Assembly: GCF_000469325.1 (NCBI RefSeq)
Contig: NZ_KI271601.1
Span: 11,829 to 50,966 of the forward strand
Origin: Schleiferilactobacillus shenzhenensis LY-73
GTDB lineage: Bacteria; Bacillota; Bacilli; Lactobacillales; Lactobacillaceae
Direction: 5' to 3'
DNA: 39,138 nucleotides
Shown here: one piece after another, positions 5,141-11,712 of the stretch
Layout of the letters: the number at the start of each line of letters is the position of its first letter
Numbering within the stretch: the stretch's first letter is position 1
Notes under the pieces: model-generated
What the model was told of the DNA's origin: nothing
The model's input: the letters and a program-made list of their open reading frames with translations, nothing else
Database searches by the model: none
Made by a program: the position numbers and the translations under genes

Positions 5141-5193
5141 CGCCAATTTTGTTCCCGTGCACGCTGTATTCGCAGAAAGGACCGTGGTGGCCC

Positions 5194-7359
5194 ATGTCAC
5201 TGAAAGACTTGGACATTAAAGATGTATCGTATTTTAAGCTGAACAACGAGGTCAACCGCCCCGTTGACGGCAAGATTCCGTTGAACAAGGATAAGGAGGC
5301 CTTGGCGGCCTTTCTGAAAGAGAACGTTAAGCCGAACTGGAAGCACTTCGACACGATTCTCGACAAGATCGACTACTTGTTGGCCAACGACTACTTGGAA
5401 GAAGGCTTCATCGACAAGTATCCCCGTCAGTTCATCAGCGACTTGTACCAGCGCTTGCTGGACGTGGGCTTCCAGTTCCAGTCCTTCATGGCGGCGTACA
5501 AGTTCTATAACCAATACGCGATGAAGACCAACGACGGTGCCGAATACTTGGAGAACATCGAGGAGCGGGTCCTGTTCAATGCCCTCTACTTCGCCGATGG
5601 CAACCAGTCCTTAGCCACGGACCTGGCTGACGAGATCATCCACCAGCGCTACCAGCCGGCCACCCCGTCCTTCTTGAACGCTGGCCGGGCCCGTCGAGGT
5701 GAGTTCGTGTCCTGTTTCCTGATCCAGCTCACCGACGACATGAACAGCATCGGCCGGGGCATCAACTCCGCCCTCCAGCTGTCCCGCATCGGCGGCGGCG
5801 TGGGCATCGCCCTGTCCAACCTGCGCGAAGCCGGCGCCCCCATCAAGGGTATCGAAGGCGCGTCCAGCGGCGTACTGCCGGTGATGAAGCTCTTGGAGGA
5901 CAGCTTTTCTTACAGTAATCAGCTGGGCCAGCGGCAAGGCGCCGGCGCCGTCTACCTGAACGTCTTCCACCCCGACATCATCCGCTTCTTGTCCGCGAAG
6001 AAAGAAAACGCCGACGAGAAGATTCGGGTGAAGACCCTGAGCCTGGGCGTGGTCGTACCGGACAAGTATTACGAATTGGTGCGCAATGATGCCGACATGT
6101 ACCTGTTCTCCCCCTACTCCGTGGAACGGTTCTACGGCAAGCCCTTCGCTTACGTGGACATCACCAAGGAATACGACAACATGGTGGCCAATCCGGCGAT
6201 CAAGAAGTACAAGATCAAGGCCCGGGATCTGGAGAACGAGATTTCTAAACTTCAGCAGGAATCCGGCTACCCTTACATCTTGAACGTGGACACCAGCAAT
6301 CGGGACAACCCGATCGACGGCAAAATCGTGATGTCCAACCTCTGCTCCGAGATCCAGCAGGTGCAGACGCCGTCCGAGATCAACGATGCCCAAGAGTACA
6401 TCAAGATGGGCAACGATGTCAGCTGCAACCTGGGCTCGACCAACATCTTGAACCTGATGCAGTCCCCCGATATGGGCCACTCCATCCGGATCATGACCCG
6501 TGCTCTGACCTACATCACCGACCACAGCGACATTGTCGCCGTGCCCAGCGTTGCCCACGGCAACAAGCAGAGCCACTCCATCGGCCTCGGCGCCATGGGT
6601 CTGCACACCTTCCTGGCGGTCAACCACATGCGCTACGGTTCCCCGGAAGCCCTGGACTTCACCAGCACCTACTTCATGCTGCTGAACTACTGGACGTTGG
6701 TGGAATCGAACAACATCGCCAAGGAACGCCACGAGACGTTCGCTAACTTTGAGAAATCCAAGTACGCAGACGGGACTTACTTCGACAAGTATGTTCAGCA
6801 GAGTTTCGCGCCGAAGACGGCCAAGGTCCAGGACCTATTTAAGGACATCTTCGTACCCACAGAAGCCGACTGGGCCAAGCTGCGGGACAACGTGAAGGAA
6901 TACGGTCTGTATCACCAGAACCGGCTGGCCGTGGCGCCCACTGGGTCGATTTCTTACATCAACGATACCAGCGCCTCGCTGCACCCGATCACCCGGCTGG
7001 TAGAGGAACGGACAGAAAAGAAGAACGGCAAGCTGTACTTCCCGGCGCCGCACCTGAGCAACGATACGCTGCCGTACTACACCTCCGCTTACGACACCGA
7101 CATGCGCAAGGTCATCGACACTTACGCTGCCGCGCAGCAACATGTGGATCAGGGAATGAGCTTGACCCTGTTCCTGCGGGCGACAATGCCGGAGGGCTTG
7201 TACGAATGGAAGCACGAGCCGGAGCAGACCACCCGAGACTTGAGTATCTTGCGGAACTACGCGTATTATAAGGGCATTAAGTCGTTGTACTACGTGCGGA
7301 CGTTCACCGATAATTCGCAGGAAGTCGGGAGTAATGATTGCGAGTCGTGCATTATCTAG
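5194..7359 (+). CDS. nrdE: Class Ib ribonucleotide reductase, alpha subunit
   Basis: A 721-residue catalytic subunit that reduces ribonucleoside diphosphates to deoxyribonucleotides in the cytosol together with NrdF. Catalytic residues are visible: the substrate-reducing pair Cys174 (FVSCFLI) and Cys411 (SCNLGS), the radical-site triad Asn382-Cys384-Glu386 in NLCSEI, and the C-terminal shuttle cysteines Cys716 and Cys719 (DCESC) that receive electrons from NrdH. Like other class Ib enzymes it lacks a long N-terminal ATP cone. I start it at the ATG at 5194 (MSLKDLD), with AAAGGA 12 nt upstream; the frame is open for 15 more codons but those do not look like NrdE. It is followed by 407 bp of strongly structured DNA before nrdF, which is unusual because nrdE and nrdF are normally close. 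Confidence 0.97.
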   Translation: MSLKDLDIKDVSYFKLNNEVNRPVDGKIPLNKDKEALAAFLKENVKPNWKHFDTILDKIDYLLANDYLEEGFIDKYPRQFISDLYQRLLDVGFQFQSFMAAYKFYNQYAMKTNDGAEYLENIEERVLFNALYFADGNQSLATDLADEIIHQRYQPATPSFLNAGRARRGEFVSCFLIQLTDDMNSIGRGINSALQLSRIGGGVGIALSNLREAGAPIKGIEGASSGVLPVMKLLEDSFSYSNQLGQRQGAGAVYLNVFHPDIIRFLSAKKENADEKIRVKTLSLGVVVPDKYYELVRNDADMYLFSPYSVERFYGKPFAYVDITKEYDNMVANPAIKKYKIKARDLENEISKLQQESGYPYILNVDTSNRDNPIDGKIVMSNLCSEIQQVQTPSEINDAQEYIKMGNDVSCNLGSTNILNLMQSPDMGHSIRIMTRALTYITDHSDIVAVPSVAHGNKQSHSIGLGAMGLHTFLAVNHMRYGSPEALDFTSTYFMLLNYWTLVESNNIAKERHETFANFEKSKYADGTYFDKYVQQSFAPKTAKVQDLFKDIFVPTEADWAKLRDNVKEYGLYHQNRLAVAPTGSISYINDTSASLHPITRLVEERTEKKNGKLYFPAPHLSNDTLPYYTSAYDTDMRKVIDTYAAAQQHVDQGMSLTLFLRATMPEGLYEWKHEPEQTTRDLSILRNYAYYKGIKSLYYVRTFTDNSQEVGSNDCESCII

Positions 7360-7360
7360 A

Positions 7361-7472
7361 GGGCGGAGCGGCCCGGTTAGAAGCGTAGGGATAAGACCGA
7401 AAGAAAGAAAAACCCGCACTTAGGTTTTGCTTTCTTTTGGGCTTATCCCCTAGCTTCTGGGCCGCGGAGCCC
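7361..7472. repeat. Long imperfect inverted repeat after nrdE
   Basis: Starting 2 bases after the nrdE stop, 7361-7414 pairs with 7423-7472 over about 45 bp with few mismatches, leaving an 8-base loop. Shared blocks are GCGGCCC, AGAAGC, GGGATAAG, AAAGAAAG and AAAACC. There is no T run, so it is not a simple terminator. In the nrdE transcript it would form a very long hairpin, as an mRNA-stabilising 3' structure or processing site, or it may be a palindromic mobile relic. Function unknown. Confidence 0.7.
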
Positions 7473-7504
7473 GTTTAGAGGCGGAACAATTCACGTGTTG
7501 ACCC

Positions 7505-7666
7505 GGCGATTTGGGTCCTCCGCCCAGGGGGCCTGGAACGCCATGGGCACGACTTTGAACCAATGCAAAAAGCGCATTGTCTCAAAGCTCGGCCTTGTTG
7601 TAAGCGGCAAAGCCGCTAACAACAATTTCATGGCTGAGGCCCCCTGGGCTCCGGGCCCAAATCGCC
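7505..7666. ncRNA. Y-shaped structured element between nrdE and nrdF (RNA or MITE-like)
   Basis: A 162-bp element with perfect ends GGCGATTTGGG (7505-7515) and CCCAAATCGCC (7656-7666). Inside, GCCCAGGGGGCCT (7522-7534) pairs with 7637-7649 and GCCATG (7540-7545) with 7629-7634, making one long stem. That stem closes a three-way junction with two hairpins: CTTTGA/TCAAAG plus CAATGC/GCATTG (7553-7587), and a 14-bp stem of TTGTTGT and AGCGGC with an AAA loop (7595-7625). The pairing is far beyond chance. Its end sequence recurs at 57-69, which favours a dispersed element. It could be a structured RNA in the nrd transcript or a small non-autonomous mobile element; I know no named family for it. 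Confidence 0.6.
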
Positions 7667-7766
7667 TACATTCTCGCAACCACTCGCATCATTCCCCGAT
7701 GTACTTGCCCAAGCGGCACGTTCGCACTAAGTCGTCCCCCATCGTAGTTCGGTAAAGGAGTTAAAT

Positions 7767-8762
7767 ATGTCTGAAACAAGCACCCATTATTACAAAGCCA
7801 TCAACTGGAACGCCATCGAGGATCAGATCGATAAGTCGACCTGGGAGAAGCTGACGGAGCAGTTTTGGCTGGATACCCGGATCCCGTTGTCTAATGACCT
7901 GGATGATTGGCGCACATTGTCGCCCATGGAACACACATTGGTGGGTCACGTCTTTGGCGGGCTGACCTTGCTGGATACGCTGCAGTCCCAGGACGGGATC
8001 GACCAGCTGCGCAAGGATATTCGGACGCCCCAGGAACTGGCCGTGTTCAATAATATCCAGTTCATGGAATCGGTCCACGCCAAGAGTTATTCGTCCATTT
8101 TCAGCACGCTGAATACGGATGAAGAAATCGACGAGATTTTCACCTGGACGAACGGTAATCCTTACCTCCAGAAGAAGGCCCGGATCGTTAACGAGATCTA
8201 CCAAAATGGGACGCCGCTGGAGAAAAAGGTCGCCAGTGTCTTCCTGGAAACCTTCCTGTTCTACTCCGGTTTCTACACCCCGCTCTATTACCTGGGGAAC
8301 AATAAGCTGGCTAACGTGGCCGAGATCATCAAGCTGATCATCCGCGACGAGTCGGTCCATGGCACTTACATCGGCTACAAGTTCCAGCTGGGCTTCAACG
8401 AGCTGAGCGACGACGAGCAGAGCCGCTTCAAGGATTGGATGTACGACTTGCTCTACGACTTGTACAACAACGAGGAACAGTACACTGAGATGCTGTACGG
8501 CGACATTGGCTGGGTAGACGACGTGGAGACCTTCCTGCGTTACAACGCCAACAAGGCGCTGATGAACCTAGGCCAGGACCCGCTCTTCCCCGACACCGCT
8601 GATGACGTGAACCCCATCGTCATGAACGGCATCTCCAACGGGACCGCCAACCACGACTTCTTCTCGCAAGTCGGCAACGGCTACCTGCTGGGCCACGTGG
8701 AAGCAATGAACGACTCCGATTACGATATTGGCCGCCCGAAGAAGGACGACAAGAAGAAGTAA
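7767..8762 (+). CDS. nrdF: Class Ib ribonucleotide reductase, beta subunit
   Basis: A 331-residue radical-generating subunit of class Ib ribonucleotide reductase; it houses a dinuclear Mn or Fe centre and a tyrosyl radical that is passed to NrdE. Metal ligands visible in order are Asp70, Glu101 and His104 (MESVHAKSY), Glu161 (LETFLF), Glu195 and His198 (RDESVHG); the radical tyrosine is Tyr108. AAAGGAG stands 6 nt before the ATG. The gene is complete and ends at its own terminator. A diverged copy of its last 30 codons plus the following bases occurs at 11623-11722, beyond the ATPase island, so this 3' end has been duplicated or replaced. Confidence 0.97.
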   Translation: MSETSTHYYKAINWNAIEDQIDKSTWEKLTEQFWLDTRIPLSNDLDDWRTLSPMEHTLVGHVFGGLTLLDTLQSQDGIDQLRKDIRTPQELAVFNNIQFMESVHAKSYSSIFSTLNTDEEIDEIFTWTNGNPYLQKKARIVNEIYQNGTPLEKKVASVFLETFLFYSGFYTPLYYLGNNKLANVAEIIKLIIRDESVHGTYIGYKFQLGFNELSDDEQSRFKDWMYDLLYDLYNNEEQYTEMLYGDIGWVDDVETFLRYNANKALMNLGQDPLFPDTADDVNPIVMNGISNGTANHDFFSQVGNGYLLGHVEAMNDSDYDIGRPKKDDKKK

Positions 8763-11599: not shown

Positions 11600-11622
11600 A
11601 CAACGCACGTGGCACTCCAAAA

Positions 11623-11712
11623 GTCGGCAACGGTTGCCTGCTGGGCCATGTGGAAGCGATGAATGATTCAGATTATGAAATTTGGCGCTCCAAGAAGGAC
11701 CACCAGAAGTAA
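11623..11712 (+). pseudogene. Diverged remnant of the nrdF 3' end
   Basis: Thirty in-frame codons ending in TAA encode VGNGCLLGHVEAMNDSDYEI and nine more residues, aligning with the last 30 residues of NrdF. The match continues past the stop (TAAGATTCAGT in both) into a terminator. There is no upstream nrdF sequence. Across the aligned part most base changes are at third codon positions and silent. So this piece diverged while it was part of a working gene and was cut off later; it is not a decayed recent copy. It marks the right edge of the island that starts after nrdF. Confidence 0.88.

Follow-up and report, generated by a model that had tools for sequence, protein, structure and literature searches.

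A Y-shaped palindromic element between nrdE and nrdF of Schleiferilactobacillus shenzhenensis is probably one copy of a mobile DNA repeat family of the Lactobacillaceae

Introduction

Is the large structured element that lies between nrdE and nrdF in Schleiferilactobacillus shenzhenensis LY-73 a regulatory RNA belonging to that operon, or a mobile repeat that came to rest there? The original prediction, made from the sequence alone, left both readings standing. The locus was examined here in a window of 39,138 nt from contig NZ_KI271601.1, and coordinates given without a locus number are positions in this window.

The nrdE–nrdF gap and its structured element

The window encodes nrdE (5149..7359, forward strand; Pfam PF02867, PF08343 and PF00317; start codon not settled) followed by nrdF (7767..8762, forward strand; PF00268), and a glutaredoxin-like open reading frame upstream of nrdE is compatible with nrdH based on Pfam. 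The nrdE stop at 7359 and the nrdF start at 7767 leave a gap of 407 bp, in which a search for promoter-like and terminator-like sites was negative, and nrdF is preceded by its own ribosome-binding-site-like AAAGGAG. Such gaps had been described as usually short, which holds for most relatives, since in 10 of 13 other loci the NrdF match begins 11–119 nt past the nrdE stop, and fails for the other three (477–635 nt), two of which have an apparent extra gene in the gap as judged by eye. Because a tandem array of repeats of about 50 bp (seen by eye) is present in the gap of a relative from another family (G025; L248, reverse strand, 866–1500), the nrdE–nrdF gap appears to gather repeats elsewhere too. 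On the 3' side of the nrd operon, positions 11617–11709 of the window have a fragment-like similarity to the C-terminus of NrdF (query 300–330 of 331, 74% identity, E 6.5e-8).

The element occupies 7505..7666 on the forward strand (162 nt), to which all of the following parts also refer. Its ends, GGCGATTTGGG and CCCAAATCGCC, form a perfect 11-bp inverted repeat, and it is bordered by CTAC at 7666–7669 (GTAG on the other strand). Folded as RNA, the element has a minimum free energy of -108.7 kcal/mol, compared with -57.3 ± 4.2 for shuffled sequences (z = -12.2; 0 of 200 shuffles as stable), and the corresponding values for the reverse strand are -107.9 and z = -10.9. The predicted fold consists of an outer closing stem of 14 pairs (arms 7505..7518, including the perfect 11-bp end, and 7653..7666), a symmetric TCC/TCC internal loop (7519..7521 and 7650..7652), and a second, inner closing stem of 13 pairs (7522..7534 and 7637..7649). 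An asymmetric internal loop, in which a conserved TGGAACG (7534..7540) faces a conserved CTGAG (7634..7638), then leads into a three-way junction bearing two hairpins. According to the fold and alignment A2 (see below), hairpin arm P2 (about 7546..7594) has a conserved CC/GTC internal loop, and arm P3 (about 7595..7625) has opposed unpaired A residues (TAAG..CTAAC). The 162-bp length, perfect 11-bp ends, two-part closing stem, two hairpins and three-way junction of the original prediction were all recovered at this position.

That description of the gap was sound for the Y element and missed two things, namely the high copy number of the Y unit and the presence of a second palindromic repeat at about 7355..7479 (no strand assigned; fold z = -7.3). 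The latter belongs to another repeat family, has a GGA/GGA loop (TCC/TCC on the opposite strand), and has 30 matches in its own genome with its own position counted. The second palindrome and the Y units may have a wider repeat class in common.

The idea that the nrdEF mRNA contains a cis-regulatory RNA controlling the nrdE:nrdF ratio is in keeping with the very stable fold, the position in an operon gap and the separate ribosome-binding-site-like sequence of nrdF. No Rfam family reached its gathering score in the window, which argues against such an RNA, and at E values up to 1 the sole match in the gap was MIR840, which falls on the second palindrome at 7355..7479 (E 0.18; score 28 bits, cut-off 150).

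Copy number and distribution

BLASTN searches with the Y unit against its own 3.27-Mb genome returned 42 matches, of which one is the unit itself, two are short fragments and 39 are other copies. A covariance model (R1) was built on alignment A2, which contains 37 of 41 regular-expression matches after exclusion of L005:2497 and L037:2840 (false), L010:1202 (a divergent variant) and L021 (a near-duplicate). R1 assigns the unit in the window a score of 129.6 bits and has 79 matches in the genome at E ≤ 0.001, some of them partial or weak; the copies within one species are related and the counts do not equal independent events. The same fold is therefore dispersed over dozens of other loci, a finding that speaks against a dedicated nrdEF RNA.

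A covariance-model search across the Lactobacillaceae, the check suggested with the original prediction, matched 75 of 251 genomes (176 negative) and 14 of 40 genera, with at most 14 candidates scored per genome, so that copy counts per genome are lower bounds. Among 398 genomes drawn from the class Bacilli, the own genome was the sole match, and three of the 21 genomes of this draw that were listed, the own genome included, are Lactobacillaceae. A pattern scan of named genomes gave at least 110 loci, all of them Lactobacillaceae by title, the matches listed including Companilactobacillus, Levilactobacillus, Lacticaseibacillus, Pediococcus, Lapidilactobacillus, Lactiplantibacillus, Limosilactobacillus, Secundilactobacillus and other genera. 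Across the family the units measure about 125–210 nt. Carriage of the copy in the window by phages or plasmids was considered and rejected, as BLASTN gave 0 matches in 72,556 plasmid and 50,697 phage records and the exact pattern gave 0 matches in IMG/VR viral contigs. No paper on this repeat family was found by title or abstract opening in a literature of incomplete coverage.

Pair architecture, conserved loops and genomic position

R1 was used to locate individual units in 74 of the 110 pattern loci and, separately, in the other 36 together with L170 again. The 74 named loci contained 142 units, and orientation was counted from these. Neighbouring units at most 650 bp apart were convergent (forward then reverse) in 43 of 47 cases, tandem in four and divergent in none, as opposed to 2 of 21 convergent among neighbours farther apart, and all eight close neighbours counted by eye in the own genome were convergent. 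Pairing is not universal, which weakens a mobile-repeat reading to some extent: 86 of the 142 units in the named loci were in pairs, as were about 16 of the 79 matches in the own genome, and the copy in the window is a single unit without a partner. It is of the type designated A in the own genome, where the pairs L010, L017 and L027 each combine, as seen by eye, a unit of type A (GGCGATTTGGG-like ends) with one of type B (GGGTGAC ends).

Internal loops are kept across genera while the stems turn over. TGGAACG was present at its expected place in 118 of 139 units from named genomes and CTGA[GC] in 111 of 139, counts that skip three A3 rows and 12 distinct A4 rows (short or holding N) and are biased because R1 was trained on the TGGAACG-bearing A2 and the named loci were fetched with a pattern that holds TGGAACG. 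Within A2 both motifs are invariant because the regular expression required both. By eye, the TCC/TCC loop recurs in units of G143 and L. zeae, and GTAG/CTAC borders most copies in the own genome, with other bases at these positions in other genera. In two genera, an inserted GCGACGCGAAGCTAG-like stretch was observed by eye to replace the TGGAACG motif (L017:1450-1510 and L182:6760-6785), hinting at exchange of variants or at recurrent insertion.

In the named genomes 46 of 57 elements were intergenic (one element per locus, 57 of the 74 loci). The habit is established for those genomes only, and to that extent does not favour a mobile repeat: a crude scan of 35 of the 79 own-genome matches placed 17 over open reading frames of at least 90 aa. 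Terminator-like hairpins with T runs adjoin the elements at L116, L119, L017 and L192, as judged by eye, as if insertion occurred just past gene ends.

Presence and absence at orthologous sites

Neither congener has a Y element between nrdE and nrdF; the nrdE stop and the NrdF match lie 11 nt apart in G001, whose NrdF is 96% identical, and 57 nt apart in G002. Both congeners have an R1 match elsewhere in the genome and yet 0 BLASTN matches, and therefore hold diverged members of the family. The flanks of 12 other elements of the own genome were sought in the congeners, and five sites were aligned, against G001 alone. Alignment of both flanks indicated that the unit is absent from G001 at L017, L010, L071 and L012; the L022 site is shorter in G001 and poorly aligned. 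Both flanks of L072 and L068 were found in G001 at shorter spacing and left out of the alignment, the L006 site differs from the congener by only about 110 bp in length, and one or both flanks were missing for the remaining sites. Among five sites compared within Lacticaseibacillus, the unit is absent from G147 at L182 and L192, L197 corresponds to the outer arms only, and at L205 and L130 spacing is about equal wherever both flanks were found.

Since the nrdEF site is empty in both congeners and four further sites are empty in one, the Y copies are interpreted as lineage-specific insertions. Against this, part of the presence/absence pattern could reflect deletion in the relative, the congeners having diverged members elsewhere, and the candidate target duplications seen by eye, direct repeats of 8 bp at L017 and 10 bp at L192, are both ambiguous, with none seen at L182. 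The vacant gap in both congeners also bears on a cis-regulatory nrdEF RNA, as the element has neither a conserved position nor a conserved gene association.

Taking these findings together, we consider, with a probability of roughly three in four, that the Y element is a member of a mobile but non-autonomous family of palindromic DNA repeats found in the Lactobacillaceae. The prediction of a non-autonomous mobile element is borne out by the R1 matches across the genome, the lineage-specific insertions and the inverted pairs.

Covariation and the nature of the folded molecule

The compensating base changes that had been proposed as a check are present. RNAalifold applied to A2 gave 41 pairs, 31 of which have changes on both sides, and stem variation is mostly in the form of double Watson–Crick changes. 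The accompanying rule that an element lacking covariation and inserting at random with target duplications is only a MITE proved too simple for this case, in which covariation is strong but has a DNA- or palindrome-like pattern. Counts of G-U versus A-C cells were 32:22 in A2, 36:36 in A4 and 88:130 in A3, the latter two alignments having been fitted to R1 and reduced to distinct rows (A4 from 105 to 75, A3 from 142 to 141). RNase P was chosen as the RNA control because the SAM riboswitch gave a match in only 1 of 10 genomes, with a score under the cut-off. When RNase P and Y units were processed by the same de novo protocol, RNase P RNAs from the 30 of 41 genomes in which a locus was obtained gave 140:20, compared with 32:22 for the 37 Y units, 26:30 for their reverse complement and 89:119 for 139 units (three of the 142 A3 rows, of at most 100 bases, were dropped). 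All of these counts omit pair columns whose commonest state is not Watson–Crick, and the de novo counts also omit columns with letters in less than half of the rows. G-U is thus favoured over A-C sevenfold in RNase P and hardly or not at all in Y units.

The near parity in Y units relative to RNase P points to DNA, rather than RNA, as the folded molecule. The absence of a clear G-U preference (near 1, versus 7 in RNase P), added to the same fold at dozens of loci and the vacant gap in the congeners, speaks against the proposal of an RNA that tunes nrdF relative to nrdE, and we consider a cis-regulatory nrdEF RNA very improbable. Parity could be caused by folded DNA, by a mutational process that maintains palindromes, or by an RNA that is needed from both strands. 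The last of these would be a bidirectional RNA device, an insulator or 3'-end stabiliser that folds in transcripts arriving from either side; parity is expected when both strands must fold, and several units adjoin terminator-like hairpins by eye. Such a device would leave the inverted pairs without a reason and does not fit lineage-specific gain or the lack of a terminator-like site at the copy in the window, making it quite unlikely.

The mutational alternative is that the units are passive palindromes, whose stems are created and maintained by template switching and gene conversion, such that covariation reflects mutation and not function. Template switching has been proposed to create and maintain hairpins through multi-base compensatory changes, as described in PMC8794818, and both the parity and the occurrence of changes in blocks fit this explanation. 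One orthologous site is instructive in this respect: between L. zeae and G263 (L182:6515-7142 versus L356), the unit is 83.6% identical and its flanks are 99.0% and 97.5% identical, with both hairpin arms paired in both genomes, which suggests block replacement via conversion or template switching. Pure palindrome repair should, however, erase the internal loops as well, yet units of different genera share TCC/TCC, TGGAACG/CTGAG and the opposed unpaired A residues; copy number, inverted pairs and new sites are also left unexplained. Passive palindromes are an explanation that we hold to be improbable.

Search for a mobilising enzyme and an ISLre2-family carrier

An enzyme that could mobilise the repeat was sought and none was found, which is a point against a mobile repeat. 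Y1_Tnp (PF01797) was absent from the own genome at E ≤ 0.001, compared with its presence in 5 of 14 control genomes, and an IS200/IS605-type (RAYT) mobiliser encoded in the own genome was rejected on this ground. Autonomous copies with cargo were also rejected as candidates, since the open reading frames enclosed by two long-range convergent pairs (L285 and L286) are host-gene-like by eye.

One insertion sequence does carry the unit. The L. zeae Y unit used as a query matched four plasmid records, and three further Y-unit queries gave no plasmid matches. Two of the four plasmids, of L. brevis and L. plantarum, have the unit inside the same 1.74-kb ISLre2-like (ISLca4) element (98.7% identical), between the transposase gene and one end (L363:3914-5648 and L364:3913-5652). 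A near search recovered this element in only these two plasmid records, and its transposase is UPF0236. Partial ISLca4 copies on contigs of L. suibinensis (L170:7510-8000) and L. manihotivorans (L232:1-281) also hold the unit, although all four copies were fetched through the unit or its pattern, so that its presence in them is biased. None of six other ISLre2 loci had an R1 match using default filters; with filters off, a P3-like hairpin of 12.6 bits was detected 3' of the transposase gene in an ISLre2 of L. backii that is 42% identical (L365:2926-2955), perhaps a divergent Y unit.

These observations raise the possibility that Y units are decayed or miniature derivatives of an ISLre2-family insertion sequence, a Mutator-like DDE family for which circular forms are mentioned as data not shown in PMC3942029, and that they are moved by its transposase. 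The shared plasmid element, the partial copies and the L. backii hairpin are in line with such descent. Among the loci scanned, however, the ISLre2 end motif was confined to the four copies of ISLca4 and to four further ISLre2 loci and occurred at no other Y-unit locus, R1 matched none of the six ISLre2 loci noted above, and the unit could simply have inserted into that insertion sequence. No other candidate parent was found. We therefore regard the ISLca4-like element as a carrier of the Y unit, perhaps its parent, and descent of the whole family from it as unlikely.

Comparison with known systems

The Y repeat resembles REPINs and the REP–RAYT system in being high-copy and palindromic, mostly in convergent doublets when close together, with compensatory changes and with singles also common. 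REPINs are inverted REP doublets (93% of 430 doublets) with compensatory changes and an associated RAYT (PMC3116915). The Y unit differs in its size, compared with a short hairpin of 20–40 bp (PMC3733652), in the absence of Y1_Tnp from its own genome, and in being confined to the Lactobacillaceae within the genomes searched. Because of its unit size and the missing Y1 transposase, the Y repeat was not placed in the REP–RAYT family. CGTC-tagged palindromic repeats of 20–40 bp form dimers apparently without a dedicated transposase (PMC3733652), a likeness to Y units; they are short, and the words "Lactobacill-" and "Firmicutes" are absent from the main text of that article.

Like MITEs, Y repeats are non-coding, multi-copy and present or absent at orthologous sites, and unlike them they have termini common to no autonomous parent found; one ISLca4-like element of the ISLre2 family carries the unit, but a scan of the other unit loci did not recover the terminal motif of this element. 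The structured repeat bcr1 of the Bacillus cereus group, listed at 147–167 bp in a survey table and with characteristics of a mobile element according to a title cited there (PMC2267715), is similar in size and belongs to another lineage, a comparison based on its description. The single Lactobacillus species in that survey of stem-loop repeats, L. johnsonii, has a family described as being of another type (PMC2267715). Of the 104 candidate structured RNAs listed in PMC2864571, the families deposited in Rfam were covered by the Rfam scan of the window. Based on these comparisons, we regard the Y repeat as a new variant of the REPIN/MITE type, distinguished by a Y-shaped unit of unusually large size.

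A possible mechanism and its consequences

For a family of non-autonomous mobile DNA repeats, the folded form that matters would be DNA, either as a cruciform or as one strand extruded during replication. Its unpaired bases would be recognised by an enzyme encoded elsewhere, which copies or moves the unit in the manner proposed for RAYTs with REPINs. Copies would exchange through recombination, and stem complementarity would be kept by structure-dependent mobility, by template switching or by both. Somewhat more speculatively, inverted Y units may delimit a new kind of mobile element that is built on DNA hairpins and common among lactobacilli, and whose folded single-stranded DNA is moved or copied by an enzyme other than the known IS200/IS605-type transposase; the convergent pair would then be the mobile unit, and singles such as that in nrdEF would be remnants or half-elements. 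We hold this extension to be improbable. The terminal repeats of AAV and other parvoviruses are Y- or T-shaped palindromes that flank a segment on both sides as inverted copies. The analogy with Y units is one of shape only, no replication gene having been found with them.

The copy in the window would have landed between nrdE and nrdF, with any effect of transcript folding on the two genes being a by-product. Provided that there is read-through, the nrdEF transcript would gain two long hairpins from it. By analogy with REP sequences located between the genes of an operon, the Y unit might stabilise nrdE mRNA and lower nrdF expression.

The Y repeat alters operon gaps, here that of nrdEF, between close species. 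It also illustrates that strong covariation need not mean RNA, and the count of G-U versus A-C cells, which separates DNA-type from RNA-type folding, could be used in RNA-motif screens. The repeat, matched 79 times by R1 in a single genome and represented in 14 or more genera of a family with industrial importance, has no match in the Rfam release searched.
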